Below, piece by piece: positions 49,377 through 63,331 of a stretch of 64,000 nucleotides of DNA (its first letter is position 1; each line of letters begins with the position of its first letter). Location of the stretch: NCBI RefSeq assembly GCF_036241575.1, contig NZ_CP108455.1, positions 3,964,001 to 4,028,000 of the forward strand. The letters run 5' to 3'. Under the pieces are notes generated by a model. It was given only the letters and a program-made list of their open reading frames with translations, ran no database searches and was not told the origin of the DNA. The position numbers and the translations under genes are program-made. The stretch comes from Streptomyces sp. NBC_01267. Its GTDB lineage: Bacteria; Actinomycetota; Actinomycetes; Streptomycetales; Streptomycetaceae.

Positions 49377-51086
49377 ATGCCAGCTCCGGATCCGACCGAT
49401 CCCCCGAAGCCCCCCACCGGCGCGAACCACAGCCTGCGCGGGCTCTCCGCCGAACTCACCGAGCGTGTGCCGCAGCTGCTCGACGCCATGCGCACCATCG
49501 GCACGGGGCTCGAACTGCACTCCACCCTGAACAGGATCTGCGAGACCGCGGCGGGGCTGACGGACTCCAGGTACGCGGCCATCGGGGTCGTCGACCGGGA
49601 GCGCGGCGGCCTCAGCGACTTCGTCACGTACGGCATCGCACCCGAGGACGCGGCCAGGATCGGCCGGATCCCCGACGGGCGGACCGGGCTGCTGGGCGCG
49701 CTGATCAACGAGTCCCACGGGGTGCGGCTCACCGATCTGACGGAGGATCCGCGCGCGGGCGGGTTCCCTCCGCACCATCCGCCGATGCGGACCTTCCTGG
49801 GGGGACCCGTCCAGGTACAGGGGGAGACCTTCGGCAATCTCTACGTCGCCGAGAAGAAGGGCGGGGCCGAATTCACCGACGCCGACTTCCACATGGTCCG
49901 GGTCCTCTCCACCGAGGCGGGCATCGCGATCAACAACGCGCGGCTGTACGAGGCCGCCCGGCAGCGTGAGCGGTGGATCGACGGCTCGGTGGCCGTCACC
50001 ACGGCGCTGCTGGCCGGTGGCGATGCCGATGACGCGCTCTCGGTGGTCGCCGAGCAGGCGCGCCGGCTCGCGGACGCGGCGGTCGGGGTGGTCATGCTGC
50101 CCGCCGCCGAGGGCGGTCTTGAGGTCGTCGCCCTCTCCTCCACCGACCGGCCCGGCCCCGCGCTGGGGATGATCGCCCCGCCGGAGAGCGGCATCGTGGC
50201 GACGCTGCTCTCGGGCTCCCCGGTGTTCGTGGACGACTCGGCCACCGACCCGCGGATGATCACCGATCTCGGCAGGGAGTACGGGCCGAGCATGCTGCTG
50301 CCGCTGCACAGCGGGGGCCGTCTGCTGGGCGTACTGGCGACTCCGCGCGAGCGGGGCGCCCGGCCGTTCAGCGCGGCCGAGCGCTCGCTGGCCGCGCAGT
50401 TCGCCTCACAGGCCGCGCTGGCACTCATGATGGCCGACGCGCAGCGGGACAGGGAGCGCCTCGCGGTCTTCGAGGACCGCGACCGGATCGCCCGCGATCT
50501 GCACGACCTGGTCATCCAGCGGCTGTTCGCCACCGGAATGATGCTGGAGGGCGCCCACCGGCAGTCCGCGATGCCCGAGGTCAGAGACGGTGTGGGGAAG
50601 GCCGTGGACGAACTGGATGTCACGATCCAGGAGATCCGCACCGCCATCTTCGCGCTCCAGCAGGGGCCCGCCGAAGCGCCCTCGGGGCTGTGCAAGCGGG
50701 TGCTGCGGGAGATCAACATGGCGGCCGTGCCACTCGGGTTCAAGCCGGAACACCGCTTTGTGGGCGCGGTCGACACGGCCGTCGGTGAACTGACGGGGAA
50801 GAACCTGATCGCTGCGCTGCGGGAGGCGCTGTCCAATGCCTTCCGGCACGCCCGTGCCTCCCGTATCGAAGTGGTCGTCGACGCCACCGCGCACCTGGAC
50901 GACGGCCGTCCGGCGGTGCGTCTCACCGTTGCCGACGACGGTGTCGGCATTCCGGAGGGCGGGCGCCGCAGCGGGCTGCGCAATCTCGACAGGCGCGCGG
51001 AGTCGCTGGGCGGATCGAGCAGCCACGGTCCGGGACTCGGCGGCGGGGGCGGCGGCACGACGGTGGTGTGGGAGGCCCCGCTGTAG
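49377..51086 (+). CDS. GAF-GAF sensor histidine kinase, DosS/DosT-like
   Basis: 569 aa. It has two GAF domains (about 35-190 and 210-350), a HisKA_3-type dimerisation region with the phosphoacceptor in DRIARDLHDLVIQRLF (near 374), and a C-terminal HATPase with DDGVGIPEGGRR. Within GAF-A, PPHHPPM and GNLYVAEK place His134 and Tyr156 exactly 22 residues apart. That is the spacing of the proximal heme His149 and distal Tyr171 of M. tuberculosis DosS. No response regulator is adjacent. It follows cydABCD by 37 bp. An upstream in-frame ATG at 49311 exists but overlaps cydCD. Confidence 0.85.
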   Translation: MPAPDPTDPPKPPTGANHSLRGLSAELTERVPQLLDAMRTIGTGLELHSTLNRICETAAGLTDSRYAAIGVVDRERGGLSDFVTYGIAPEDAARIGRIPDGRTGLLGALINESHGVRLTDLTEDPRAGGFPPHHPPMRTFLGGPVQVQGETFGNLYVAEKKGGAEFTDADFHMVRVLSTEAGIAINNARLYEAARQRERWIDGSVAVTTALLAGGDADDALSVVAEQARRLADAAVGVVMLPAAEGGLEVVALSSTDRPGPALGMIAPPESGIVATLLSGSPVFVDDSATDPRMITDLGREYGPSMLLPLHSGGRLLGVLATPRERGARPFSAAERSLAAQFASQAALALMMADAQRDRERLAVFEDRDRIARDLHDLVIQRLFATGMMLEGAHRQSAMPEVRDGVGKAVDELDVTIQEIRTAIFALQQGPAEAPSGLCKRVLREINMAAVPLGFKPEHRFVGAVDTAVGELTGKNLIAALREALSNAFRHARASRIEVVVDATAHLDDGRPAVRLTVADDGVGIPEGGRRSGLRNLDRRAESLGGSSSHGPGLGGGGGGTTVVWEAPL

Positions 51087-51167
51087 CTGCGCCGGGCCGG
51101 GACCGCGCCGGACCGCCGGGCAGCAGCGGCGCCGGTGTCAGCGGGACTCGTGGTGAGGCGCCAGGTG

Positions 51168-52022
51168 TCAGCGGGCCTTGAGGATCTGCTCGATGATGAC
51201 CGCGACGCCGTCCTCGTTGTTCGTCAGAGTCCGCCCCGAAGCGGCGGCCACCGCTTCCGGGTGGGCGTTGCCCATCGCGTACGAGGTGCCCGCCCAGCTC
51301 AGCATCTCGACATCGTTCGGCATGTCACCGAAGGCGACGACCTCGGACGGGGCGATGCCCCGCTCGGCGCAGCACAGTTCCAGGGTGCCCGCCTTGGAGA
51401 CACCGGCGCCGCTGATCTCCAGCAGCGCGGTCGGGCTGGAGCGGGTGATGGACGCGCGGTCCCCGACGGCGGCGCGCGCCAGGGCGAGGAAGTCGTCGGG
51501 CGCCAGCTCGGGGTGGTGCGCGAGCACCTTCAGTACCGGCTGATCCGCGATGTCGGAGTCCGGAGCGAGCAGCTTCTCGGCGGGTGCGACGCTCGATGCG
51601 GGGTCGAACTGCATCGGGGGGTAGGCCAGTTCGTGGTGGATGCCGCCGGTCCGCTCCACGGCGAACGAGGTGCCGGGTGCGGCGGCTCGCAGGATGGAGA
51701 TCACGTCGAGTGCGTCGGTGCGCTCCAGGGGGAGGACCTTGACGAAGACGTGTCCGCCTCCGTCGCCGTGCAGGTCGACCACGGCTGCGCCGTTGCCGCA
51801 GATGGCGAGGCCGTGGCCGTGGACGTGGTCGCTGACGACATCCATCCACCGGGCCGGACGACCGGTGACGAAGAAGACGTCGATCCCGGCCTCCTCGGCG
51901 GCGGCCAGCGCGGCGATGGTGCGGTCCGAGACGGTCCTGTCGTCCCGCAGCAGGGTGCCGTCCAGATCGGTGGCGATCAGCCGGGGCGGAAGGGGGGCGG
52001 CGGGGCCGGTAGCTGAGGTCAC
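51168..52022 (-). CDS. HAD-superfamily (Cof-type) hydrolase
   Basis: 284 aa. Motif I ATDLDGTLLRDDRTV, motif II FFVTGRPARW, and C-terminal GDMPNDVEMLSWAG (motif IV) define the HAD-IIB Cof class of sugar-phosphate or nucleotide phosphatases. The GTG at 52022 is chosen over a much longer open frame because it fits family length. Converges with the histidine kinase gene. Substrate unknown. Confidence 0.85.
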   Translation of the reverse strand: MTSATGPAAPLPPRLIATDLDGTLLRDDRTVSDRTIAALAAAEEAGIDVFFVTGRPARWMDVVSDHVHGHGLAICGNGAAVVDLHGDGGGHVFVKVLPLERTDALDVISILRAAAPGTSFAVERTGGIHHELAYPPMQFDPASSVAPAEKLLAPDSDIADQPVLKVLAHHPELAPDDFLALARAAVGDRASITRSSPTALLEISGAGVSKAGTLELCCAERGIAPSEVVAFGDMPNDVEMLSWAGTSYAMGNAHPEAVAAASGRTLTNNEDGVAVIIEQILKAR

Positions 52023-52229
52023 CGGACCATTCTCCCGCACGGAGCGCACGGGCGTGCGAAAGGTCGCACATCTGAGAGCGTGCGCGGGCACGCGGCTGAG
52101 CCGGGCGGGCCCCGCCGGTGAGCGTCCGGGCCGCGTTCCCGTCCCCGGAGGCGCCGCCGGGTGGGGTGCGTGCGGTCCGGTCCGGCGACCGGGTCCGCCC
52201 GGGGGCGGGTACGACGTAGGGTCGTGGCC

Positions 52230-52449
52230 ATGCGTCTGAGTACCGTGATTCTCCCCGTCCGCCGCTGGCGCGAGGGTGGCCGTGAGCAGTGGGTGCGCGC
52301 CGAGGGGCTGGGTTTCCACACCGCGTACACCTACGATCATCTGTCCTGGCGGGTGCCGTTCCGCGACGGCCCGTGGTTCGGTGCGGTGCCGACGCTGACC
52401 GCGGCGGCGGCGGCGACCGGGCACATCCGGCTGGGCACGCTCGTCACCT
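52230..52449 (+). pseudogene. Truncated 5' fragment of an LLM-class F420/flavin oxidoreductase (native copy)
   Basis: The first ~73 codons of an LLM-class oxidoreductase (MRLSTVILPVRRWREGG, AYTYDHLSWRVPFRDGPWFGAVPTL, RLGTLVTS). It is intact in frame but abruptly continues into unrelated DNA after the codons for GTLVTS, at the shared sequence CTCAGTCAAGCCTCTT. The rest of the gene is not in the window on this strand. It lies in the expected place after the HAD gene, so this looks like the chromosomal copy split by an insertion. Confidence 0.8.
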
Positions 52450-52463
52450 CAGTCAAGCCTCTT
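52448..52463. repeat. Shared junction repeat, copy 1 (candidate att)
   Basis: CTCAGTCAAGCCTCTT, identical to 56078-56093. Both copies sit at the point where an LLM 5' fragment ends. Confidence 0.75.
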
Positions 52464-52506
52464 TCACCTATCGCGGCGTGACCTGGGCGAATTCGTTGTC
52501 TCCGAC

Positions 52507-52595
52507 TCAGATACTGATGGGCCGGACGCGGTCAGCGCACAGCAGGGCCATGTCATCGTCCGTCTGGCAGCCGACCAGGGAGTGATGGGGACAGC
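52507..52595 (-). pseudogene. Possible C-terminal remnant of a PP2C/SpoIIE-type phosphatase
   Basis: On the minus strand an ~85-bp run reads HHSLVGCQTDDDMALLCADR before a stop. DDxALL is a typical C-terminal piece of SpoIIE-like phosphatases. There is no complete domain, so it is at most a relic. Confidence 0.35.
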
Positions 52596-52647
52596 GGTTC
52601 CCCGCCTGGACGACGCCGGGTCAGGGCGGACCAGTAGAACGGACTGG

Positions 52648-54651
52648 TCACGTGTAACCGAGTTCCTCCAGGCGGACTCTGAGCCGTGTCGCAGCCGCCT
52701 CGCTCTGCCTCTCCAAATCCGCGATGGAAGTTTCGTACCGGTCACCCCATGAGCGGTAGACGTCGACCATTCCCTGTCGCTTTGCGGCAGCGAGCCTCTC
52801 CACACGAGAGCAAAGGTCGTCACCAAGGACCTCAAGCACTCGCTCGCGTGCCAGGCCATCAGGGAGATACGAAGGTCGGCCGTCGGCCACCGCCCACCGG
52901 GCGATCACCCCGGGAAAGCTCCGGAGGTCCAGGCTTCTGAGGTCGTCCTGCCGGACGGCCCACCATGCCGCGAACGCACCGGTCAACTGGTACCGGTCCA
53001 GGATCCCGGCCAGCAGGAGCTCCTCACGGAAAGAGGCCATGAGCCGGGAACGCGACGTCAACAGATTTCCGGTGCCCACGAGTTCGGCAATGCGTGATTC
53101 CGTTGCACGCCACCAGGAGCGGCAGTGGTCGACGAAGTCCCCCTCTCGGGCAGCGGCCAGGTCCGAGATACGCGCTGCCGTCGCCTCGCACCCGCGGGCA
53201 GGGAAATCGAAGTAGCCGGAATCCTTCGTCGTGAACAGGTCGGTGAGGCCGATACCGAAGACCTGGAACCTCTCCATCCCCGCGACGACCTCACTTCTCG
53301 GTACCCCACCGAACAGCGCGGCACGGACGTCCAGCGATGGCTCGGCGGGTGGACCCGGGTCGACATAACGCCGGATGTTGAGGTTGAAGTCGTTGGCCTC
53401 GATCTCGTCCAGAGAGACCACTCGCGAGAAGCCGGGGATGTCCGCCCACTCGTGGAAGGCGCCCACGATCTTTTCCACGTTCTGCGGCTCCAAGCGGTTC
53501 TGCGACCGCCCCGTGACCACTTCGCGCTCCGCGTTGACGAACAGTACCTGGCCGCGCTGATCCGCCGATGTGCCGGCCGTGCCCCGCAAGACCAGGATGC
53601 AGGCCGGGATGGCCGTGCCGTAGAAGACGTTCGGTCCGATACCGATCACCGCTTCGAGTCGGCCGTCTTCGACGATTCCCCGGCGGATCTGCTCCTCTGC
53701 CCCACCCCGGAACAGCACACCGTGCGGGGTGACGACCGCTCCGATCCCGTCCGGAAGGAGTGTGGCCAGCACGTGCTGGACGTTCATCAGATCGGCCTTC
53801 TTACCCTGCCCGGGTGTCCAGCCATACTTCATCCGCTCCGAATGCCTCATCTCCTTCTCGGAGTAGTTCATCGAGAAGGGAGGATTGGTCAGTACGCGGT
53901 CGAAGCGCCTGAGGTGCCCGTCCTCCAGTGAGTGAAGTGGATCGGTCAGTGTGTCCCCGCAGAGCACGGAACTGTCCGTGAGGCCGTGCAGCAGAAGGTT
54001 CAGCCGAGCAGTGGAGCACGTCGCGGCGTTCATCTCCTGCCCGAAGAGGGCGAGGTCCGCGCCCTCCCCGCCCTGCTCGTCGACGTACTGCCCGGCTTGG
54101 ACGAGCATGCCTCCTGAGCCGGCAAACGGATCGTAGACCGACTGTCCTGCCAGCGGGCGGACCAGGCGCACCATCAGGCTGACCACAGAACGGGGCGTGA
54201 AGAACTCTCCACCCCGTTTCCCGAAACTGTCGGCGAACGCGCCCAGGAGGTGGTCGTACGCGCGGCCGACCACGTCGCCGAACTCCAGGTCGCCGTCGTT
54301 CAGCGGAATACGGTCGAAGTGATCGACCATTGCCTTCAATTCGCCGCGGCTCAGTCTTACGTCGAAGTCGACAGCCTCGAACACGCCCTTAAGGACTTCT
54401 GGGTTGCTCTGCTCAAGTGCCCACAGAGCCTCGTTGAGTACCCGCCCCGGCGCCTTGCCCTCGTAGTCGACGATCTGGGACCAACGCGCACGGTCAGGCA
54501 CCCGCAGGATGCCCGGCTGATCCGAGACCCGCTTGAGAAGCAGCATCGCAGAGATGACTTCACGGTACTGCGACGCGTCCATCCTGCCGCGCAGGATGTC
54601 GCCAGCGTCGAAGAGGGCCCGTTCCAATTGGTCGAGGTTCAACAGACTCAC
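52648..54651 (-). CDS. hsdM: Type I-like DNA adenine methyltransferase (HsdM)
   Basis: 667 aa. The N-terminal helical HsdM domain (about 1-130) is followed by the gamma N6-adenine methylase core. SAM motif I is DPFAGSGGMLVQA at 174-186 and catalytic motif IV is NPPF at 256-259. The roughly 200 residues after the core (from about 450) are an unusually long helical extension. The GTG at 54651 overlaps the stop codon of hsdS. No hsdR lies in the window. Without it the pair could only methylate, or it belongs to another defence type. Confidence 0.85.
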   Translation of the reverse strand: MSLLNLDQLERALFDAGDILRGRMDASQYREVISAMLLLKRVSDQPGILRVPDRARWSQIVDYEGKAPGRVLNEALWALEQSNPEVLKGVFEAVDFDVRLSRGELKAMVDHFDRIPLNDGDLEFGDVVGRAYDHLLGAFADSFGKRGGEFFTPRSVVSLMVRLVRPLAGQSVYDPFAGSGGMLVQAGQYVDEQGGEGADLALFGQEMNAATCSTARLNLLLHGLTDSSVLCGDTLTDPLHSLEDGHLRRFDRVLTNPPFSMNYSEKEMRHSERMKYGWTPGQGKKADLMNVQHVLATLLPDGIGAVVTPHGVLFRGGAEEQIRRGIVEDGRLEAVIGIGPNVFYGTAIPACILVLRGTAGTSADQRGQVLFVNAEREVVTGRSQNRLEPQNVEKIVGAFHEWADIPGFSRVVSLDEIEANDFNLNIRRYVDPGPPAEPSLDVRAALFGGVPRSEVVAGMERFQVFGIGLTDLFTTKDSGYFDFPARGCEATAARISDLAAAREGDFVDHCRSWWRATESRIAELVGTGNLLTSRSRLMASFREELLLAGILDRYQLTGAFAAWWAVRQDDLRSLDLRSFPGVIARWAVADGRPSYLPDGLARERVLEVLGDDLCSRVERLAAAKRQGMVDVYRSWGDRYETSIADLERQSEAAATRLRVRLEELGYT

Positions 54652-55253
54652 GTGCGCCTCACTCCCTGGATCAGCTCTCCGAAGATGGCCGGCCGTAGTG
54701 CCTCCAGGCGATCAGCCATCTGCCGCTGGATCCTGATCCGTACGTCGACATCCGCCAGCGCTTCGACGACAGCGTGCTGCCGGTCCAAGGGCGGAACGGT
54801 GACCGGCAACTCGTTCAGCATCGCCGAGTTGAGCGAAGGCACCGTACCCGGGATGGACTGGCCCAGCATGTACCGCTGCACGGGCGGATACGACAGATAC
54901 GACACCAGGTACTCCGGCAGGACACGGTCTCGCTGGGGCCTGATGCGCAGACAGGACGAACCATAGAACCAGGTGGCGTGTTCCGCCTCGACCAGCGCCA
55001 GCCGGCCGAGCGTCCCCTGCCGCACGACGAGGATGTCGCCCTCCCGCAGCGAGAACCGGGAGAGGCGTTTCGCTCCGTCCCACGGAACCCGCCGTAGCCG
55101 CCGGGTGTCCACTTTGTGGTCGTCGGTGAGATCCGGCGGCGAGATCACCGGCACTCCGTCGGGGCCTTCTTGGAGGTTGTCCAGCAAGGACCCGGACGGC
55201 CCTGCCTTCACCTCGCACAGGGTCCCGAGCGGGATCTCATGGTCCCGGCTCAT
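54648..55253 (-). CDS. hsdS: Half-size type I specificity subunit (HsdS)
   Basis: 201 aa, about half the usual HsdS. It has a single target-recognition domain (WFYGSSCLRIRPQRDRVLPEYLVSYLSYPPVQRYMLGQSIPGTVPSLNSAMLNELPVTVPPL) and one C-terminal spacer helix. Half-size S subunits work as dimers and recognise palindromic targets. ATG at 55253 with AAAGGAG upstream. Overlaps hsdM by 4 bp, so translation is coupled. Confidence 0.8.
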   Translation of the reverse strand: MSRDHEIPLGTLCEVKAGPSGSLLDNLQEGPDGVPVISPPDLTDDHKVDTRRLRRVPWDGAKRLSRFSLREGDILVVRQGTLGRLALVEAEHATWFYGSSCLRIRPQRDRVLPEYLVSYLSYPPVQRYMLGQSIPGTVPSLNSAMLNELPVTVPPLDRQHAVVEALADVDVRIRIQRQMADRLEALRPAIFGELIQGVRRT

Positions 55254-55321
55254 GGATACGTCGTCTCCTTTCACAGCTCCTCGGTCCTCTTCCCGGCACC
55301 CCGATCTGCCGTGGCCCCGCG

Positions 55322-55357
55322 CGTGGGTGGTGCGGGTGCGCACCCGCACCACCCACG
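55322..55357 (-). terminator. 36-bp perfect palindrome terminator
   Basis: Two 18-nt arms (CGTGGGTGGTGCGGGTGC) with no spacer, just after the small gene at 55359-55574 and before hsdS, on the minus strand. Confidence 0.7.
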
Positions 55358-55358
55358 G

Positions 55359-55574
55359 TCAGGCGACCCGCGTCCAGTACCGCACGGCGCCGCGTACCAG
55401 TTCCTCCATGGCAGCGGCCAGCAGGGCCATGACGACCACGGTCAGCGCCGCCGTACCGTGCCCCAGGGCGAAGGCGCCGAACACAATCAGGACGATGATC
55501 AGCACAAGCGGCACCCCGGCCTTGATGGCCCGAGGCGGGAGGGACCATGCATGATGGGTAATGGGAATCCTCAC
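55359..55574 (-). CDS. Small membrane protein in the island
   Basis: 71 aa, starting with GTG at 55574 (AAAGGAC upstream). Two hydrophobic helices: VPLVLIIVLIVFGAFALG and TAALTVVVMALLAAAMEEL. I do not recognise it. It resembles the tiny membrane proteins common on actinomycete mobile elements in size and build only. It lies upstream of hsdS-hsdM on the same strand. Confidence 0.5.
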   Translation of the reverse strand: MRIPITHHAWSLPPRAIKAGVPLVLIIVLIVFGAFALGHGTAALTVVVMALLAAAMEELVRGAVRYWTRVA

Positions 55575-55734
55575 GAGGATGTCCTTTCTGTCTTCGCACT
55601 CTGTGCGGGGATGGTCGAACCGCGCCACCCTGCCGGGCGTCCAAACCATGCAGGGTGGCGCGGCGGTTCGTGCGGCACCACACACCGAGTCCGGGCCACG
55701 CCCGATCCTCGGTGACACTGAAGACACTACATCT

Positions 55735-55748
55735 CGAAGCTAGCTTCG
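55735..55748. promoter_or_regulatory. 14-bp palindrome near the island gene start
   Basis: CGAAGCTAGCTTCG is a perfect palindrome 160 bp upstream of the small membrane-protein gene and 119 bp before the second LLM fragment. It may be an operator; nothing proves it. Confidence 0.4.
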
Positions 55749-55866
55749 CAAAAGGTCGCGCGCTCCAACTGCCCCACCGAGGGCAGCGAGTTGGCCCCGC
55801 CGCATCCCTTTGCCGCGTCACCACATCCGCCGGAACGTCTCAGACCGTCTCGCCTATCGTCGAGGT

Positions 55867-56080
55867 ATGCGTCTGAGCACTGTGATCCTGCCGATCCATC
55901 GATGGACCAACGGACGGAGGCTGTGGCAGCACGCCGAACAACTCGGCTTCCACACCGCGTACACCTACGACCATCTGTCCTGGCGGAGCTTCCGCGACGG
56001 GCCATGGTTCGGTGCGATCCCGACGCTGACGCGGCAGCGTCGGTAACGCAGCGTATGCGTTTGGGTACCCTCGTCAACTC
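55867..56080 (+). pseudogene. Second truncated 5' fragment of an LLM-class oxidoreductase
   Basis: Codes for MRLSTVILPIHRWTNGRR, AYTYDHLSWRSFRDGPWFGAIPTL, then after a 1-2 base frameshift near 56030 AAASVTQRMRLGTLVNS. It is clearly a diverged allele of the fragment at 52230, not a copy of it. Homology stops at the equivalent codon (GTLV[T/N]S), again at CTCAGTCAAGCCTCTT. Confidence 0.8.
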
Positions 56081-56093
56081 AGTCAAGCCTCTT
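56078..56093. repeat. Shared junction repeat, copy 2 (candidate att)
   Basis: CTCAGTCAAGCCTCTT, identical to 52448-52463. 3.6 kb of hsdMS-bearing DNA lies between the two copies. Confidence 0.75.
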
Positions 56094-56280
56094 CGACTCA
56101 CCAAGTTGCACTGGCTTCGCATCGGGGTTCGACTCTTGCCCTCGGTCAACCCACCACTCGACCGCGCTGGCAGGGCGTGGATCCCAGTTTGTCAAATTCG
56201 GAGACGCTGAATGACCGTGCGCTGTAGCTTCACCGCGTGCGAGCCGAATCGAGCTCGCGCAGCGGGAGGGGATGTTCGGC

Positions 56281-57204
56281 GTGCGAGTTGTGTCAGTCAT
56301 CAATTATAAGGGTGGGGTCGGAAAGACTACCCTTACTGCAAATATTGGAGCAGAGCTTGCATTTCGAGGGAAGAAAGTTCTGCTCATCGACCTCGACCCG
56401 CAGGCGAGTCTGACATTTTCGCTTGTTCGACCCGAGTATTGGCAACAGAATCTTGAAGCCGAGAAGACGATTAAGAGATGGTACGAGTCGTTCGACTCCA
56501 GTTCCCCTCTGAGTCTATCGTCACTTGTGACGCGAGCTCCGCGAATTCGAGACTTCGGGAACGGCGGAATCTTGCGATTCATTCCGTCGCATCTTGGGCT
56601 GATCAACGTCGATTTGGAACTGGCCACAGAACTCGGGGGAGCCTCCCTCAAGCAATCCAAAATCAACTACCTCCGCGTCCATCGACGTCTTTCTGAAGGA
56701 CTCAAAGAGGATGTGTTTAGCAATTTCGATGTAATCCTAATCGACTGCCCGCCAAATTTTAATATCGTAACAAAGAATGCAATCGTCGCAAGTGACAGCG
56801 TCCTCATCCCAGCCAAAGCCGACTATCTTTCGACACTCGGAATCGACTATCTCCAGCGAAGTCTGCGCGAACTCGTTGGGGATTACAATGAATATGTGCA
56901 ACTCGAGCCTGGAGACGGAAATGCGCGGGTGATCAATCCGCAGGTACTTGGCGTAGTTTTCACGATGATGCAATTTTATGGCGGTCAGCCAATTTCCGCT
57001 CTGCGTCCGTATATGCGCCAGACCGCATCGCTCGGAGTGCCCGTGTTCGACAGCCTTATGCGGGAGGCGAAGACGCTGTTCGCCAGCTCCCCTGGCAGTG
57101 GGCAGCCCCTAGTTCTGAGGGCCGGAAAGACTGCGACCGAGAAGCAGTTGATCAGGGAACTCGAAGTCCTGGTTTCGGAATTCATGCTCAAGCTTGGGGT
57201 GTAA
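56281..57204 (+). CDS. ParA/MinD-like ATPase, lower-GC than neighbours
   Basis: 307 aa from GTG at 56281 (GGAGGG sits 10 bases upstream; the ATG at 56272 is too close to it). Deviant Walker A NYKGGVGKTT near residue 9-18, LLIDLDPQASLT, DVILIDCPPNFN and the C-terminal VFDSLMREAKTLFASS match ParA/Soj. The gene uses AT-ending codons far more than its neighbours, a sign of transfer. It overlaps the downstream small gene's ribosome site and forms a two-gene unit. No parB is adjacent. Confidence 0.83.
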   Translation: MRVVSVINYKGGVGKTTLTANIGAELAFRGKKVLLIDLDPQASLTFSLVRPEYWQQNLEAEKTIKRWYESFDSSSPLSLSSLVTRAPRIRDFGNGGILRFIPSHLGLINVDLELATELGGASLKQSKINYLRVHRRLSEGLKEDVFSNFDVILIDCPPNFNIVTKNAIVASDSVLIPAKADYLSTLGIDYLQRSLRELVGDYNEYVQLEPGDGNARVINPQVLGVVFTMMQFYGGQPISALRPYMRQTASLGVPVFDSLMREAKTLFASSPGSGQPLVLRAGKTATEKQLIRELEVLVSEFMLKLGV

Positions 57205-57208
57205 AACT

Positions 57209-57625
57209 ATGCACACGTCTGCAGGAGAGTCGAGTATGGTGCTCGAGCAGGTGGGGATTTTCCTGCAATCTCTATCACCTGAACAGATCGAAGATCTAGC
57301 GGCTGGGCGGTACCGAATTTCCCTGGTCAGAACGCAGGCGCCACGAGAAGCCAAAGCTCGCCGGAGCAGCCCGAGCGTCGATCTCGAGCAGCTGCGAATT
57401 GACCTTTCCGGTGTGGAATCACGGGAAGCCGGAGAGGATTATCTTAAAAATAAAAAGCTGAGTCGCGCCGATCTGCAGGCTCTTGCCCGCGTGCTGGATA
57501 TTCCAGTGCGGAAGGGTGACAACATGGATGCGATCAGAGAGAGTGTTGTCGAGGCTACGATCGGGTACCGATTGAGGTCTGATGCAATTCGCGGAAACAC
57601 CCCGCCCGAAGGTGAGGTTAAGTAG
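57209..57625 (+). CDS. Small protein with a SAP/Rho-N-like C-terminal helix pair
   Basis: 138 aa, starting 4 bp after parA. The C-terminal part (LSRADLQALARVLDIPVRKGDNMDAIRESVVEATIGYRLRSDAI) looks like the SAP/Rho-N family of nucleic-acid-binding helix-loop-helix units. The N-terminus has SLSPEQIEDLAAGRYRISLV. Lower GC like its partner. I infer a DNA-binding partner of the ParA-like ATPase. No exact match is remembered. Confidence 0.6.
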   Translation: MHTSAGESSMVLEQVGIFLQSLSPEQIEDLAAGRYRISLVRTQAPREAKARRSSPSVDLEQLRIDLSGVESREAGEDYLKNKKLSRADLQALARVLDIPVRKGDNMDAIRESVVEATIGYRLRSDAIRGNTPPEGEVK

Positions 57626-57812: not shown

Positions 57813-58982
57813 TTACTCGGCACCCGATCTTGAAATCCATCGGGCCACACCTTCGAAGGCATTTAGTGCCCGCTTGTCATACAGCCCGAAAAGGTCCTGG
57901 CAGTCACGGCCGAGGCGGTTGTACAGGGCTGCAGCCCCCCGGGTATCGCCCGACTGGCCAGTGAGTTCGGCATGCTCTATGCGCTTTTCGATCACTTCCT
58001 CACCATACGGCCCGAACCGGAGTTCCAGTTCGAAGATGCGGCGGTCCAATTCCTGAATACGCTCCGAGTGGCCGACATTACTGTCCACGGCGTCCAGCAG
58101 GTGAGTCCGCCCCATGGCAATGGCCACGTCCTCAGTTCCCAAGGAGTGCTGGACTTCGCTCATCACTACGGCAACTGCTTCGGCGCTGCGCGGACGACCT
58201 GCCGGATCCTTGGCCAGGAGAATTCGGACGATGAAGTCAAGCTGATCGGGCACGCCTGGGCGGTGGGCACTTGGCGGTGCCGGCAAGTTGTCTTGGTGCA
58301 TTCTTCCCACGGTCATGGGATCGTCCTGCGGGCTGCCGAAGGGCGGTCGCCCCGTCAGCATCTCGTAGAGGACGCAGCCCACGGAATACAGGTCACTATG
58401 CACGCTGCCCGGGCTGCCAGCCCACCTCTCGGGAGCCTTGTACAGAGCGGTTCCCACGCCTGTGTGGGACTGGGTGACATCAGCGAAGGACGCGAGCCCG
58501 AAGTCCACGATCTTCACCACGCCCTCGTTTGTGATCATGATGTTGTCGGGCTTGATGTCATGGTGGAGCACCTTGCGTAAGTGCGCGGCGTCCAGGCCCT
58601 CGCAGATCTCCCGTGTCCAGCGGACGGTTCGCTCGGTCGTGAGCGTGGGCCCTTCCTTTAAATGGCTAGCGAGTGATCTGCCCTGGATGTACTCCATGAC
58701 GATGTAGAGCTCGCCCTCGTGCTCGCCCGTGTCGTAGATCTGCGCGACGTGGGCATGGCTGACCCGCGCCATAGCAACGCTCTCTCGCCCGAACCTTTTC
58801 ACCGTCCAATCGGTGAACTCTGTGGCAGCTCCCTGCTGGCGGAGACGTCGTCGCGCGAGAAACTTCAGGGCCACAGTGCGGCCAAGCTTCGTGTCCTCGG
58901 CCGGCCAGACGTCACCCATAGCACCGCTGACCGGACGGTCCTTAACTTTGAAGCGGCCACCGATCAACTTGGAGGTGTCCAT
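57813..58982 (-). CDS. Soluble Ser/Thr protein kinase
   Basis: 389 aa. N-terminal eukaryotic-type kinase domain: P-loop VSGAMGDVW (the first Gly of GxGxxG is replaced), ATP Lys40 (VALKFL), catalytic loop HHDIKPDN with Asp142 (the HRD arginine is replaced by His), DFG at 160-162 and KAPERW. The last ~110 residues are helical and TPR-like. No transmembrane segment, so it is cytosolic, unlike PASTA kinases. Leu108 is a TTA codon (58659-58661). 44 bp downstream of the coiled-coil membrane gene on the same strand. Confidence 0.85.
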   Translation of the reverse strand: MDTSKLIGGRFKVKDRPVSGAMGDVWPAEDTKLGRTVALKFLARRRLRQQGAATEFTDWTVKRFGRESVAMARVSHAHVAQIYDTGEHEGELYIVMEYIQGRSLASHLKEGPTLTTERTVRWTREICEGLDAAHLRKVLHHDIKPDNIMITNEGVVKIVDFGLASFADVTQSHTGVGTALYKAPERWAGSPGSVHSDLYSVGCVLYEMLTGRPPFGSPQDDPMTVGRMHQDNLPAPPSAHRPGVPDQLDFIVRILLAKDPAGRPRSAEAVAVVMSEVQHSLGTEDVAIAMGRTHLLDAVDSNVGHSERIQELDRRIFELELRFGPYGEEVIEKRIEHAELTGQSGDTRGAAALYNRLGRDCQDLFGLYDKRALNAFEGVARWISRSGAE

Positions 58983-59026
58983 CTGGTTCCTTTCCCGCTT
59001 CCTGGCCGGACACTCACGCCAGGTGA

Positions 59027-60820
59027 TCAGCCCCGCTTGTGTCCGTCTCCCCACCGAGTGAGGAGATCTAGCTGCTCCACCGCATCTTGCCAATCCTCGA
59101 GAAGGTCCTTGCACTGGCGGAGCGCCTTGTCCATCGTTGCGACAGCTTCGTGTCGCAATTGGTCTCCGTGATCGCGTACGCGCCTTCTGCGGAACGGGAT
59201 GCTTCCGAACTCCCAGACCGCCCCAGTGAAGAGTCCGATCGTGAGCAGCGCGAAGAACCAACGTGCTGCGCCATCGACGAACGGCACCACCAGCGCCAGT
59301 GTGAACGCACCGATTACCAAGGCGCCGATCACGCGTGGCCATCTGCGCGCGACAGCGTCCGATCGAACCTGAGTCTGTCGCTCGATATGCGTGTCGAGTT
59401 CATCGACAACCCTGCCTGACTGCACCATCATCTGCGGGTCCGTCGGGACGGAGCAGTCCCAGCCCGCGACGCTCAACGTGATGTGACGCGGGAGGCGATT
59501 GCGGGAGGCAGTGACGAGCCGTTGCGCAGCCTCCTCCAAATCCGGCCAAATGGCCCGCAAAGCCATGCGGCGAGCCGGTTGGCTGAGCCGTACTTCGTCT
59601 GGCTCGAAGATGGCCTGATCGAGGAGTTCCATGAGTGCGATCGGGGCGCCGTCGGGGGAGACTGACGATTCATGGGCCCTGTCAGCCGCCTCAAGGTCTC
59701 CGCCGTGTTCGATGACCCGCTCAAGTCGCCGCATCCTCTCGCGCATGTCTGCTTCATCCGGCTCGAGTTGATCGATGAGACGTTCGAGGGCGCTCTCCAC
59801 ATGGCCGCCATTACCGACCGGCGTATCGGCTCCGTCGAACCCATCAGGGAACATGTGCTCAAGGTGGGCCAAGGTCCTGTCGGGCACCGTCGATAGTTCC
59901 CAAGCACCCCGGATCGCCTCCCATTGGTCTCCGCACGTCTTGCGTAGGACTGCGTACCGGTTCTCGGTAAGGCGACCTCGGAGGTTCAAGAGACGGGACC
60001 CCAGCTGGGTGCTACCAAGCATGCCGACCGATGCAGGTGCACCGGCTGAGAGGGGCGAGACCCCTCGGTTCCATCGCGCCATAGCCTGCCGGGCGTAGCC
60101 GAGTGCCTTTTCGCCCAGTTCCTTGCCGGCGATCGCGTCCAGGACGACCAAGAAGTCTTGCCCCAGTTCATCAGGGTCGAGCGACTGGAGGTAAAGGTCC
60201 ATCCATGCAGTGGCTTCGGTTTCGTCTCCGAGGCGAGAACACGTAAACGAGAAAAAGAGGTTGGCCTTCGCGGCGTCCAAGGCGCAAGCATGCGCCCGCG
60301 CGCGCTCACCCTGCTCCTCCTCATCGCGGAACTTGGCTGCGACTGCCATCGTGGCAGGCGCTAGCCAGTACGTTGGCTCAAGGAGTAGCCGCTCCTCGGA
60401 GCATGCCCGCACGGTGGCTGTGTTCACTACGTTTCTGTAGATGGCCTGTGCGGTGAGGGTGTGCACTAGGCCGCGGGCCAGGGTGCGGGTCTGTTTGCGC
60501 TGCGCGAAGCTTGCATGCCACTCGGTAGTCAGCCGAGACAGTTCTGCCTGGGCCTTGGAGGCTTCCCGGTCACGTCCGTACTGTTCGATAAAGGTGTCGA
60601 GAGTCTGGCGTGTGTCGGTGACCGCGCTCTCTAGCCCTGCGATCTCCTGCCGCACATTGCTGACCTCCCCGCTAAGCCTCACGACGTCCGTCTCCACGTC
60701 TTGCAGCCCCTCCCTGAAGCCGGACAGCCTCGCCTCGTGACGCCCTTGCCCCTCCTCTATGCCTTCGATCCGTTCGCCGAGTCGCTGAATCGCCGTGTCC
60801 AGGCCAAGCTCGTCGTCCAT
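59027..60820 (-). CDS. Large coiled-coil protein with two C-terminal TM helices
   Basis: 597 aa. Residues 10-100 predict a coiled coil (IEGIEEGQGRHEARLSGFREGLQDVE, QEIAGLESAVTDTRQTLDTF). A long helical middle part with Trp/Leu-rich segments follows. The pair of helices VIGALVIGAFTLALVVPFV and WFFALLTIGLFTGAVWEF lie near 500-545, with a cytosolic basic tail. ATG at 60820 follows GGGGGATGTC. I do not recognise a family. It precedes the kinase gene in one transcription unit, so it may be a sensor or a substrate. Confidence 0.7.
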   Translation of the reverse strand: MDDELGLDTAIQRLGERIEGIEEGQGRHEARLSGFREGLQDVETDVVRLSGEVSNVRQEIAGLESAVTDTRQTLDTFIEQYGRDREASKAQAELSRLTTEWHASFAQRKQTRTLARGLVHTLTAQAIYRNVVNTATVRACSEERLLLEPTYWLAPATMAVAAKFRDEEEQGERARAHACALDAAKANLFFSFTCSRLGDETEATAWMDLYLQSLDPDELGQDFLVVLDAIAGKELGEKALGYARQAMARWNRGVSPLSAGAPASVGMLGSTQLGSRLLNLRGRLTENRYAVLRKTCGDQWEAIRGAWELSTVPDRTLAHLEHMFPDGFDGADTPVGNGGHVESALERLIDQLEPDEADMRERMRRLERVIEHGGDLEAADRAHESSVSPDGAPIALMELLDQAIFEPDEVRLSQPARRMALRAIWPDLEEAAQRLVTASRNRLPRHITLSVAGWDCSVPTDPQMMVQSGRVVDELDTHIERQTQVRSDAVARRWPRVIGALVIGAFTLALVVPFVDGAARWFFALLTIGLFTGAVWEFGSIPFRRRRVRDHGDQLRHEAVATMDKALRQCKDLLEDWQDAVEQLDLLTRWGDGHKRG

Positions 60821-60996
60821 GACATCCCCCAGGCCATCACCAACTGCGTTATGTGCCTGACCATTGTCGACTCAACCCGGCCACTCCTCGGCCAACTGGC
60901 TTGAATCGGTCTGTAATTGTGTCGTTTCGGCCACTGTCGGCGCGGGATGGCAGTATGGCGTGTCACATGAACAGACCGACCGAACGGGAGCGCACA

Positions 60997-61746
60997 GTGC
61001 GCGAAATCGTCTATCTGTCGGAAAGTAAACTGCGGCAGTTCGTACCTGCGCCACGGCGTGTCCCGCGTACGGGTGCTCTCCGAGTGACCACGCCGTTGGG
61101 AGGCATCGACCTGGACGCGCCGGTACCCAACCTGGAACAAGGGCAGCTGCGGCACCTTCGCGATGTTTCCGAGCACGTTGAGCTTGTGGCGGGCTGGTAC
61201 GCACAGCCTGACTTGCGTCCCGGCCAGTGGGTGCAGTTCGAAGCACCACTTCGTTGCGTGACGCTCGATGGCGCTCACCAGGACCTCGTACTGTTCGTGG
61301 ACCCTTCAGACCGAGAGAGAACAGGCTCCGTGACAGACGGGGACTGCCGTCTGCTCATGCATGGGTCGGTCCGTCATCTCAAGGGCTGGACCCCGATGTC
61401 AGTAGACGGTCCCGCGCTAGAAGTAGAGAACTCGGCCTCCAGCCTGGGAACTGCATTCATCACCAGGGCCGGGCAGGTCGTGGAGGCGCTCACCAGGCAC
61501 CGCGACCCGCTGCTACTGGAACGGACTCCATCCCCGGAAGCGGCGCGCCTGCACCGCCGGGGCGTGCAGGAACTGCTAGATGCGTTGGACGACGAGGACG
61601 GCAGTATCGATACTTCCGCAATGATGACTGGATACGCGCGGGTCACGGGAATTCTCTCGAGTGCCGGCGCCACCTCTCGGTGCGTAGTGGCTAGCCCCCT
61701 CGTTGTGGAGTTTTCGGCAGCCGACCCTTTGAGGAATTCCATGTGA
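60997..61746 (+). CDS. Uncharacterised protein, SAVMC3_10250/DUF7019-like
   Basis: 249 aa from GTG at 60997 (GGGAG six bases upstream; an in-frame ATG at 60967 is possible). It opens with MREIVYLSESKLRQFVP, which from memory resembles a streptomycete family named SAVMC3_10250. The body shows GGIDLDAPVP, LFVDPSDRERTGSV and LLMHGSVRHL. No enzyme motif is recognised. It is divergent from the coiled-coil/kinase operon with a 176-bp gap. Confidence 0.6.
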   Translation: MREIVYLSESKLRQFVPAPRRVPRTGALRVTTPLGGIDLDAPVPNLEQGQLRHLRDVSEHVELVAGWYAQPDLRPGQWVQFEAPLRCVTLDGAHQDLVLFVDPSDRERTGSVTDGDCRLLMHGSVRHLKGWTPMSVDGPALEVENSASSLGTAFITRAGQVVEALTRHRDPLLLERTPSPEAARLHRRGVQELLDALDDEDGSIDTSAMMTGYARVTGILSSAGATSRCVVASPLVVEFSAADPLRNSM

Positions 61747-61832: not shown

Positions 61833-62735
61833 TTAGCCGAGTTGTTTGCGACCTTCGGTGGCAATCAACTCGAAGACCGCCTGGCCAGCGGCAAAGTCCG
61901 AGTCGGGAATCGGCCAGTGGATCACGATTTCGGTGAAACCGAGCTCACGGTGGCGGCCCGCGAAATCAACAAAGGCGTCTACGGAATCCAGCGGCCGGTT
62001 TCGGTCGGGAGTGAAGCCGTGGAGCAGGATCTTGTCGAGTTCGGCCACGTCTCGGTCGATCTCCGCACATGCCGTGCCGAGTTTCTCAATCTGGCCGCGA
62101 AGGGCTTCCACCGACTGGTCCGGTGTGCCCATCTCGTACAGCTTCGGGTCACCGGTCGTCACCCATGCCTGCCCGTACCGTGCGGCCAGCTTCAGCCCGC
62201 GCGGACCTGTCGCCGCCACCGCGAACGGCAGCCGGGGCTGCTGTACGCAGCCGGGGATGTTCCGGGCCTCGTCCGCCGAGTAGAGGTTCCCCTCGTGCGT
62301 GACGGAGTCCTCGGTGAGCAGCCGGTCGAGCAGCGGCACGAACTCGCCGAGCCGATCCGCCCGCTCCTTCGGTGTCCACGGCTCCTGCCCTAGTGCCGTC
62401 GCGTCGAAGCCGTTGCCGCCTGCCCCGATGCCGAGCGTGATCCGGCCGCCGGAGATGTCGTCAAGCGAGATCAGCTCTTTGGCAAGGGTCACAGGGTGCC
62501 TGAAATTCGGTGACGTAACGAGGGTGCCCAGGCGCAGCCGGTCAGTGGCCGTGGCAGCAGCGGTAAGCGTGGGCAGAGCGCCGAACCATGGACCGTCGCG
62601 GAAGGTGCGCCAGGAGAGATGGTCGTAGGTGTAGGCGGCGTGGAAGCCGAGTTGCTCGGCGCGCTGCCACTTGGCGCGGCCTCCCTCATGCCAACGGTCG
62701 ACGGGAAGGATCACGGTGCTCAGGCGCAGGCTCAT
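61833..62735 (-). CDS. LLM-class F420/flavin-dependent oxidoreductase, complete copy
   Basis: 300 aa. A TIM-barrel bacterial luciferase-like fold with MSLRLSTVILPVDRWHEGGRAKW, FHAAYTYDHLSW, LGTLVTSPNFRHPVTLAKELISLDDISGGRITLGIGAGG. It is the full-length relative of the two truncated fragments at 52230 and 55867 and lies on the opposite strand. Its cut point equivalent reads LVTSPNFRHP in full. Cofactor and substrate not defined. Its ATG overlaps the stop of an upstream small ORF by 4 bp. Confidence 0.88.
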   Translation of the reverse strand: MSLRLSTVILPVDRWHEGGRAKWQRAEQLGFHAAYTYDHLSWRTFRDGPWFGALPTLTAAATATDRLRLGTLVTSPNFRHPVTLAKELISLDDISGGRITLGIGAGGNGFDATALGQEPWTPKERADRLGEFVPLLDRLLTEDSVTHEGNLYSADEARNIPGCVQQPRLPFAVAATGPRGLKLAARYGQAWVTTGDPKLYEMGTPDQSVEALRGQIEKLGTACAEIDRDVAELDKILLHGFTPDRNRPLDSVDAFVDFAGRHRELGFTEIVIHWPIPDSDFAAGQAVFELIATEGRKQLG

Positions 62736-62857
62736 GTCACTGAGCCTATGCCGGACACGGACCCCCATTCGTCCCGAGCGAAGACGAGCCGGGGCTGCTT
62801 GGGCTGCTCGACGTCGCACACGACGATGAGGCCGCCGATCATCTGCCGCCCGCTCAT
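62732..62857 (-). CDS. 41-aa ORF coupled to its neighbours
   Basis: MSGRQMIGGLIVVCDVEQPKQPRLVFARDEWGSVSGIGSVT. Its start ATG overlaps the Nudix stop by 4 bp (ATGA) and its own stop overlaps the LLM start by 4 bp (ATGA). This suggests it is translated in one operon, but no homologue is known to me. Confidence 0.5.
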   Translation of the reverse strand: MSGRQMIGGLIVVCDVEQPKQPRLVFARDEWGSVSGIGSVT

Positions 62858-63331
62858 TGCGCCGCGGTGGCCGCCCATCCGTAGCGGGAGAAGGAGGGAC
62901 CACCGTTCTGATACGCGGCAAGGGCCTGTGCGGAGGTCGGGAACGCAGGCTCGGGCAGGCGGTCGGCGGCGACCCACTGGGCCGCCAGGTGCTTGGCCGG
63001 CTCGGTGTTGGTCAGTTCGCCGGTCCACGTGTCGGTGGCGAAGGCAAAGAGGACGAACTGCCCGGCCTCGTCCCAGCCATGTTCGACGTGGATGACGTGG
63101 ACGAGTGCGAGGTCCGCCGGGCCGACAAGCAGACCGGTCTCCTCCTTGAGTTCGCGGGCGGCGGCCTCGTCGAGGGCTTCGCCAGGTTCGGCCTTGCCCC
63201 CGGGGAGGGTCCAGGCCGGTTGCGGGGACCAGTTACGCGCGGCGTAGTGCACAGCGGGCGATCGTGCCGGCGCGCTTGTCGTGGACGATCACGCAGACCA
63301 TGTTGCGGCTGTTCATCACGCTGGCGCTCAT
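62854..63331 (-). pseudogene. Nudix hydrolase split by a frameshift
   Basis: The ATG at 63331 (AAGGAGAGGG upstream) reads MSASVMNSRNMVCVIVHDKRAGTIAR, then shifts frame near 63253. Removing one T there gives ARVHYAARNWSPQPAWTLPGGKAEPGE and continues through the Nudix box PGGKAEPGEALDEAAAREL-KEETGL. The second part alone lacks the first beta strand. Either a real pseudogene or a sequencing error. Upstream of the small ORF and the LLM gene in one operon. Confidence 0.78.

Follow-up and report, generated by a model that had tools for sequence, protein, structure and literature searches.

A large serine recombinase element in a Streptomyces LLM oxidoreductase gene, with a putative recoded rescue copy of its target

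The split LLM gene, its junctions and the integrase

The window, meaning the whole 64,000-nucleotide stretch of DNA analysed here, contains an LLM gene split by an insertion of approximately 21.6 kb. The host locus and the two junctions within the window comprise the following features:

51168..52022, minus strand: HAD-type hydrolase gene, chromosomal left flank (Pfam Hydrolase_3; flank identical in G358)
52230..52450, plus strand: the host's own LLM 5' half, the B half of attL, ending at the crossover (identical to the uninterrupted gene of G358)
52448..52490, plus strand: outer attL junction, core and P' arm (CTCAGTCAAGCCTCTTTCACCTATCGCGGCGTGACC...; P' consensus from 34 sites)
55867..56080, plus strand: passenger LLM 5' half of another lineage, with a 1-nt deletion (96% identical to an inner piece of G057)
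56078..56093, plus strand: inner attL junction, with a P' arm that leaves the consensus after approximately 15 bp

Both LLM 5' fragments continue into CTCAGTCAAGCCTCTT, at 52448-52463 and 56078-56093, as the sequence-only reading of this DNA had observed. The 16-mer is present in two exact copies, with no further match at up to three mismatches on either strand of the window, while two or more matches at this tolerance were obtained in 4 of 100 shuffles. In the 8.07-Mb genome, the 12-mer CTCAGTCAAGCC was found at these two junctions and nowhere else. Among 295 genomes of the genus, the 13-mer TCAGTCAAGCCTC was listed at 14 places in 10 genomes, and an LLM 5' half or stub precedes it at 10 of them. 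At the remaining four (two in G068, one in G040 and one on contig 34 of G275) no LLM sequence was found before the 13-mer, which excludes the assumption that every occurrence is an attL. Dyad symmetry in the G000 attP is not supported, since 10 of 26 positions are symmetric and 3634 of 20,000 random centres reach this value.

An uninterrupted LLM gene, representing the empty site that the earlier reading proposed to look for, is present in G358, a genome of the same species. Up to position 52450, the host piece shows zero differences from it. Comparison of the empty and filled sites revealed that attL and attR have CTC in common, and the recombination core is probably TC. The expectation that a complete gene would continue into SPNFRHPV was borne out by a host 3' half starting in this way at 74096-74776, 10 kb past the window end (coordinates beyond the window continue its numbering into L003). 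The short common core and the empty site in G358 characterize this locus as a site-specific insertion of a large serine recombinase element. The repetition of one 16-mer 3.6 kb apart could also suggest that a single LLM fragment was simply duplicated in tandem. This explanation has a negligible probability, as it is already refuted by the empty site; moreover, an integrase is present and, as the first reading recognized, the alleles differ, the first piece being that of G358 and the second of different origin.

A large serine recombinase gene (72633-74066) is located beside attR, approximately 30 bp from the LLM 3' half. Both had been missed in the sequence-only reading because its finding stopped at the window edge. 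The 477-aa integrase combines Resolvase, Recombinase and zinc-ribbon domains in one protein (PF00239, PF07508 and PF13408, all above cut-off). Of 20 genomes encoding an integrase at least 87% identical, 19 have it beside an LLM 3' half. The proposed targeting of this LLM codon window by an integrase is upheld by the empty site, the recombinase beside attR and the recurrence of the same junction in many species.

More distant integrases (73–75% identity, together with L058 and L059) do not share the LLM site; they adjoin the 3' half of another gene, a putative aminotransferase by our reading. All 11 genomes of this group that were searched contain a further copy of that gene in a longer open frame, and the 10 further copies inspected are unbroken across the junction. 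A phage origin is not supported by the integrase matches, which in 619 phage records all stayed below 60% identity, the top-listed one being at 31%. In IMG/VR, five relatives were detected at 29–32%, while the PDB yielded one weak match (E 2.8e-4). Among plasmids, two large Streptomyces replicons encode a partial relative at 91%, which covers 61% of the query. Membership in the SCC/Ccr group was also rejected, as the integrase scores far under the cut-offs of the CcrA (47.8 bits, cut-off 700), CcrB (39.2, cut-off 900) and CcrC (32.3, cut-off 900) models.

Composite element and 5'-half arrays

The interval 52450-56078 is an integrase-free segment bounded by two attL copies. The genes of this segment and of the rest of the element within the window, apart from the LLM sequences, are listed below:

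52648..54651, minus strand: type I DNA methyltransferase (HsdM-like), first-interval cargo (Pfam N6_Mtase, HsdM_N)
54648..55250, minus strand: short type I specificity subunit (HsdS-like, 200 aa; Pfam Methylase_S)
55359..55727, minus strand: ORF of 122 aa, also in G057 and G323 by tblastn (no Pfam match)
56272..57204, plus strand: ParA-like ATPase (Pfam AAA_31, CbiA)
57209..57625, plus strand: ORF adjoining the ParA-like gene (no Pfam match)
57813..58985, minus strand: Ser/Thr protein kinase (Pfam Pkinase; best PADLOC model PD-T4-6)
59027..60820, minus strand: 597-aa protein (no Pfam match)
60853..61746, plus strand: SAVMC3_10250 family protein (NCBIfam NF040893, 188 bits, cut-off 50)
62854..63252, minus strand: Nudix-type hydrolase gene, kept in related elements (NCBIfam Nudix below cut-offs; tblastn matches in G025, G057, G116 and G290)

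The LLM piece at 55867 is at most 85% identical to the intact chromosomal LLM genes compared. The composite containing it is also found in G057, which belongs to another species (95–98% identical DNA), and is absent as a unit from G358, a distribution suggesting that it moved as a unit. Judged by this comparison, the second LLM 5' half is a passenger attL inside the composite and does not mark another integration into the gene of this host. The earlier idea of tandem accumulation, with each end bringing its own 5' piece, therefore holds for the stacking of elements and fails for the second piece as an integration of its own. The G057 element has matches to MobC (PF05713) and DUF2637, with a 569-aa protein lacking a Pfam match beside MobC; approximately 3.8 kb of its MobC region is missing from the G000 element.

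Arrays of this kind are common, as 14 of the 23 carriers have between two and five LLM 5' halves, full or partial (a count that includes partial pieces and leaves out G146, with no 5' half beside its truncated integrase), separated by cargo genes of restriction type and other kinds. They could be derived from recombination, homologous or illegitimate, of resident elements with imported chromosomal DNA, with no regeneration of attB by inner excision. The junctions between cassettes and foreign 5' halves, which differ from case to case, are consistent with such an origin, as are the up to 300 bp of upstream DNA common to the inner pieces of G290, G416 and G418. Against it stands the integrase-free cassette of G003, whose stub, P', cassette and chimeric complete LLM form the structure predicted for inner excision. 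We regard the recombination origin as a possible, though less likely, account of the arrays, and growth of the element family by tandem accretion as the best reading. Insertion into the cargo LLM in its present orientation was ruled out because the 5' halves have the opposite orientation.

As a separate observation, one cargo-type LLM, in G010, may be cut in direct orientation.

The carried LLM copy and its attachment window

The element also contains a complete LLM gene, whose element-borne position and recoded attachment site were passed over in the sequence-only reading:

61833..62735, minus strand: complete element-borne LLM gene, inverted, the proposed rescue copy (Pfam Bac_luciferase)
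62485..62536, minus strand: attB-equivalent stretch in the carried copy, synonymously recoded (GTT ACG TCA CCG AAT TTC AGG CAC CCT)

A search of G000 for LLM 3' halves identified, besides this copy, the host's 3' half as the sole match. All 23 intact element-borne copies have a synonymously recoded attachment site (the broken cargo LLM of L057, excluded from this set, is also recoded), compared with 0 of 30 native genes, a set without L106, which has no full LLM, and without L093 and L108, where the genome's own 3' half and cargo copy were refound. All 53 genes encode VTSPNFRHP, and the synonymous versions number 14. The carried copy is thus altered at the target site with the protein unchanged, the pattern expected of a disrupt-and-rescue arrangement. 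In a scan of the whole gene by 5-codon windows, the attB window came out on top, 6.3 standard deviations over the mean, and the native form is found at 22 of 23 used attR sites. G046 was moved from the cargo to the native set because its LLM adjoins the HAD gene and has the direction of the 5' stub; if counted as cargo, recoding would stand at 23 of 24. The cargo of G419 is on a contig without other context, and that of G373 lies at a contig end.

In three held-out genomes (G508, G550 and G584), the copies are recoded and agree on the main point, with ACC kept in G508. No single base change is common to all copies, and the G421 copy exhibits few changes. The ACG before the core was found in used attL, and the codon AGG alone is evidently tolerated because the used attR of L067 and the native gene of L111 have it. 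The carried copies do not form one clade (AU p 4.6e-13), being scattered among native genes in the tree, and they are under purifying selection, with a median dN/dS of 0.18 and a maximum of 0.32 (171 pairs).

Recoding could have arisen without selection against integration, by descent from a small number of donors in which these codons were unusual, by window exchange among copies or through codons relevant to translation. The form CCT AAT TTC AGG appears in several copies across distant parts of the tree, which window exchange could explain, and the phylogenetically independent pairs on well-supported branches number two, too few for a sign test. The 14 synonymous versions, the scattering of the copies among native genes and the concentration of change at the attachment window, not along the gene, make this origin quite unlikely; window exchange would in addition still need a reason for keeping the recoded form. 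The DNA of the carried copy is changed exactly at the insertion site, apparently so that the spare would escape breakage.

A further alternative is that the inverted LLM does not act as a replacement and encodes a useful or neutral enzyme carried as ordinary cargo. The case of G146 bears on this, as its native LLM is intact and its sole cargo LLM is broken, beside a truncated integrase, indicating that the carried copy can be lost. Such a loss fits ordinary cargo, but loss beside an intact native gene fits replacement as well. Since the carried gene is the same gene as the target, occurs in all carriers examined in this respect and is recoded precisely at attB, we consider the cargo explanation unlikely.

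Proposed mechanism and comparison with known systems

We consider it likely that this family is an element of Streptomycetaceae in which target disruption is accompanied by a recoded rescue copy and arrays arise by inner excision; the block by recoding and the rescue itself are what we infer. In this model, the 477-aa large serine recombinase would recombine attP with an attB inside the conserved F420-type LLM oxidoreductase gene, and the recoded copy would replace the function lost through insertion while serving poorly as an integration target for this integrase and its relatives. In a composite with a foreign LLM 5' half, the integrase part could excise at the inner attL, leaving a chimeric complete LLM; this would constitute a new attB and thereby permit array growth. 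Imprecise loss of the element would leave a host without an LLM gene, so that host and element would be tied together. That this is a natural disrupt-and-rescue element, with repeated capture of the gene from different host lineages and synonymous attB changes making the copy immune to its own and related integrases, is fairly probable from the comparisons described above.

For Streptomycetaceae, the element offers a candidate attB/attP system, and it marks a defined locus at which cassettes, of restriction type and others, gather. Elements that insert into genes may restore the gene end, as at tRNA genes; carrying a complete spare with a recoded attachment site would, if true, be another solution. 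Recoded spare copies are visible from sequence alone and may be findable around other serine integrases.

The family resembles SCC with Ccr in its large serine recombinase, its one chromosomal target gene and its composite islands with several attachment sites. SCC leaves its target gene intact, whereas the present element splits its target and brings along a complete copy in inverted orientation.

The integrases of Streptomyces vectors (phiC31, phiBT1, TG1, R4, SV1, phiJoe and Samy) likewise use an attB inside a conserved gene (portions of PMC12924846 and PMC7460540). An LLM gene is not named as attB in those portions of the two texts, and neither an LLM attB nor a naturally recoded rescue copy was found among the abstract openings searched, although the LLM site may already be listed in supplementary attB tables.

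According to the consulted part of PMC5704250, decayed integrase-free elements accumulate in tandem beside an active one and can move as a composite (ICESt1 and ICESt3 of streptococci). The stacked integrase-free segments and the apparent composite movement here resemble this CIME/ICE accretion; there, however, the newcomer enters the resident's attR including the target-gene end, while the present cassettes end in a target 5' half able to rebuild both gene and attB. Serine-recombinase IMEs disrupt dispensable genes (same source, in part), and insertion breaks a gene in this family too, but the element carries a copy of the broken gene. There is also a likeness in design to engineered rescue gene drives (HomeR, Cleave and Rescue, and TARE), in which, as far as the excerpts describe them, the target is broken and an escaping copy is supplied. 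Those systems are engineered nucleases in insects, whereas the element described here uses a natural recombinase in bacteria, with a putative rescue.

The split LLM gene and its integrative element

In G000, the genome under study, the F420-type LLM oxidoreductase gene is split by an insertion of approximately 21.6 kb, whose features are listed below in window coordinates, continued rightward where needed.

Window: G000:C1:3964001-4028000, in an 8.07-Mb genome
52230-52450: outer LLM 5' fragment, adjoining a divergent HAD hydrolase gene
52648-55250: genes for HsdM and a short HsdS, in the first interval
55867-56080: inner, diverged LLM 5' fragment with a 1-nt deletion
61833-62735: complete LLM gene in the element, inverted
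72633-74066, minus strand: recombinase gene (477 aa)
74096-74776: LLM 3' half, found by reading 18 kb beyond the window

The sequence-only reading held that both 5' fragments run into one 16-bp sequence, and CTCAGTCAAGCCTCTT is indeed present directly after each, outer and inner. Its expectation that a complete gene would continue into SPNFRHPV agrees with the 3' half, whose first residues are exactly these. It also proposed searching other genomes for a serine or tyrosine integrase at the junction and for an empty site with an intact gene; a recombinase gene was located at the far end of the insertion, next to the 3' half, and an empty site in another genome. The distance from the 3' half to the start codon of the recombinase is about 30 bp, and the Resolvase, Recombinase and zinc-ribbon domains of this protein are the set found in large serine recombinases. 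G358, a genome of the same species in which the integrase search (E ≤ 1e-150) found nothing, has the empty site: it matches window positions 50500-52450 at 100%, continues directly into the LLM 3' half, and its right flank aligns with G000 over 1497 bp with 9 mismatches. Comparison of the empty site (GTCACCTCGCCGAACTTC), attL (GTCACCTCAGTCAAGCC) and attR (GGTTGGGCTCGCCGAAC) showed that attL and attR have the bases CTC in common; since ACG, ACT or AAC precedes TC in some used attL sites, the recombination core is probably TC. A new attachment site and its integrative element are well supported. The HAD gene (51168-52022) is located upstream of and divergent from LLM in G000, G290 and G116, but many others, G057 and G025 among them, have it downstream of the LLM 3' half.

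Integrase matches at E up to 1e-150 were identified in 25 of 392 genomes of the genus, 11 of them (including G000) with at least 87% identity, in some cases over part of the length, and a scan of GTDB genomes yielded 29 named loci. Where the integrase reaches 87% identity or more (20 genomes), the LLM 3' half adjoins it in 19, the sole exception being L057, where the integrase is truncated. Integrase relatives of 73-75% adjoin another gene. These sister integrases, together with L058/L059, were observed beside the 3' half of an aminotransferase-like gene (L044-L050, L052-L054, L058, L059; L177-L206). Several such 3' halves stand in tandem at these loci, and one more copy runs uninterrupted through the junction, as though sister elements brought a replacement 3' half along, which would be another mode of target rescue. 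Actinacidiphila bryophytorum DSM 42138 (G424; L052, L055) encodes both integrase types, each beside its own target-gene halves.

A carried LLM copy recoded at attB

A search of G000 with the LLM 3' half returned matches limited to the cargo copy and the split host gene. Complete copies are present in the other carriers too; in all cases where copy and 5' halves share a contig, the two have opposite orientations. The carried copy is recoded at attB: native genes read ACC TCG CCG AAC TTC CGG CAC at this site and typical copies ACG TCG CCT AAT TTC AGG CAT, with the same protein. In the first set (19 copies, 29 native genes), unusual codons within an 8-codon window, picked after the codons had been viewed, amounted to 75/152 in copies and 9/232 in native genes, against 573/5331 and 545/8129, respectively, elsewhere in the gene. 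As a control, all 5-codon windows were ranked along the gene, and the attB window ranked highest, exceeding the mean by 6.3 standard deviations. After the addition of four copies and one native gene, CC[GC]AACTTC after the Ser codon was absent in 23/23 copies and present in 30/30 native genes; all 53 encode VTSPNFRHP, the copies in 14 synonymous versions. The same motif is found in 22 of 23 used attR sites, the exception (L060) belonging to an element with a broken integrase. Purifying selection acts on the copies (dN/dS over 171 pairs: median 0.18, maximum 0.32). The best explanation is that recoding would block integration while the copy would restore function.

For INDEPENDENCE, a tree was computed without the attB window. 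Copies fall at several points among native genes, with 7 label changes, at least 3 forced by well-supported branches, and one clade of copies was rejected (AU p 4.6e-13). A larger tree gave 8 label changes, 2 of them forced; only two supported pairs are independent, each agreeing with the expected direction, and this number is too small for a test. Recoding and structure were predicted beforehand for the newly found carriers G508, G550 and G584. In each of them, an LLM 3' half adjoins the integrase, 5' halves are present and a complete LLM lies in inverted orientation; the copies are synonymously altered (CCT or CCA, in part also AAT or TTT), while attR is native. Where ACG or ACA had been predicted, G508 keeps ACC and G584 has ACT. 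Neither AGG nor CGT was found in the three copies, and the pattern used detected no P' motif at the 5' halves of G584.

Composite elements and possible growth of arrays

The composite at 52450-74095 is also present in G057, with 97.7% identity over 4.7 kb and about 94.8% over two stretches of 11.5 and 5.5 kb, between which G057 carries extra DNA. The alleles of the two fragments differ, as the sequence-only reading had noted: the outer piece equals the species' own LLM gene, and the inner one, located within the shared composite, is 96% identical to the inner piece of G057. Because the composite is shared and the outer piece is native, the inner piece is, on this comparison, a passenger attL. 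The earlier proposal that elements accumulated in tandem, each end bringing its own LLM piece, is right in part: the inner piece here came within the composite and not through a second integration into this host's gene. Of 23 carriers with a readable left side, 14 contain two or more 5' halves (full or partial), with five in G550; these counts are lower bounds owing to fragmented contigs. Full 5' pieces mostly run into the P' arm, the element-side half of attL; partial ones do not always. At L003:3723-4634 (67723-68634, window continued), a gene that encodes 569 aa in G057 and neighbours MobC there is reduced to its first 26 codons, which continue into a downstream gene, and about 3.8 kb of the G057 element is missing there, so that the G000 element may be defective in transfer.

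According to PMC3783163, serine integrases recombine no pair but attP and attB unless a directionality factor is present; insertion into attL is therefore not expected, and every step of array growth would need a fresh attB. A composite could lose its integrase part at the inner attL; this excision would unite the passenger 5' half with the 3' half of the host gene, and the joined halves would rebuild an LLM gene and an attB. G003, a genome with no integrase match, displays the host LLM 5' half, P' arm, cassette and complete LLM in this order. The 5' half of its complete LLM is closest to inner pieces of other elements (0.907, G418), with at most 0.824 for other native genes in the ranked list, and the 3' half is closest to native L104 (0.905). 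This arrangement corresponds to the state expected after inner excision. In the window, the inner P' arm matches the consensus over roughly its first 15 bp and then diverges, and the composite may consequently now move only as a whole.

Two further arrangements were observed. In G010 (L024, L025), P' follows an LLM 5' half that, together with 0.75 kb upstream, shares 98% identity with the cargo LLM of G421 (L163), as would result from the cutting of a cargo copy with little recoding; close by is a second, decayed LLM. G022 (L172, an L022-type locus), a genome in which no integrase was matched, combines an LLM 3' half and a short LLM stub with attL and a Snf2-like cassette; the stretch read has no complete LLM gene.

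Interval cargo and known systems

The intervals between attL copies encode HsdM and HsdS in G000, G057 and G323, a PIN-like protein (19.8 bits, below the cut-off of 23.6) and a 410-460-aa unknown protein in G416, G418, G424 and partly G323 and G425, Snf2-like and SWIM-like proteins in G425 and G323, and a GmrSD-type protein in G323. In the G290 interval (L021), a 515-aa transposase-like gene is present twice, as identical tandem copies separated by about 1.7 kb. The family-library run was limited to HsdM, HsdS, PIN and GmrSD; other names derive from reading translations. Between the two attL copies of G000, the genes seen did not include one for a restriction subunit.

Engineered rescue drives are known in the literature consulted, whose limited coverage yielded no report of a natural recoded rescue copy. 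Tandem accretion is known in ICEs and IMEs, as described in PMC5704250.
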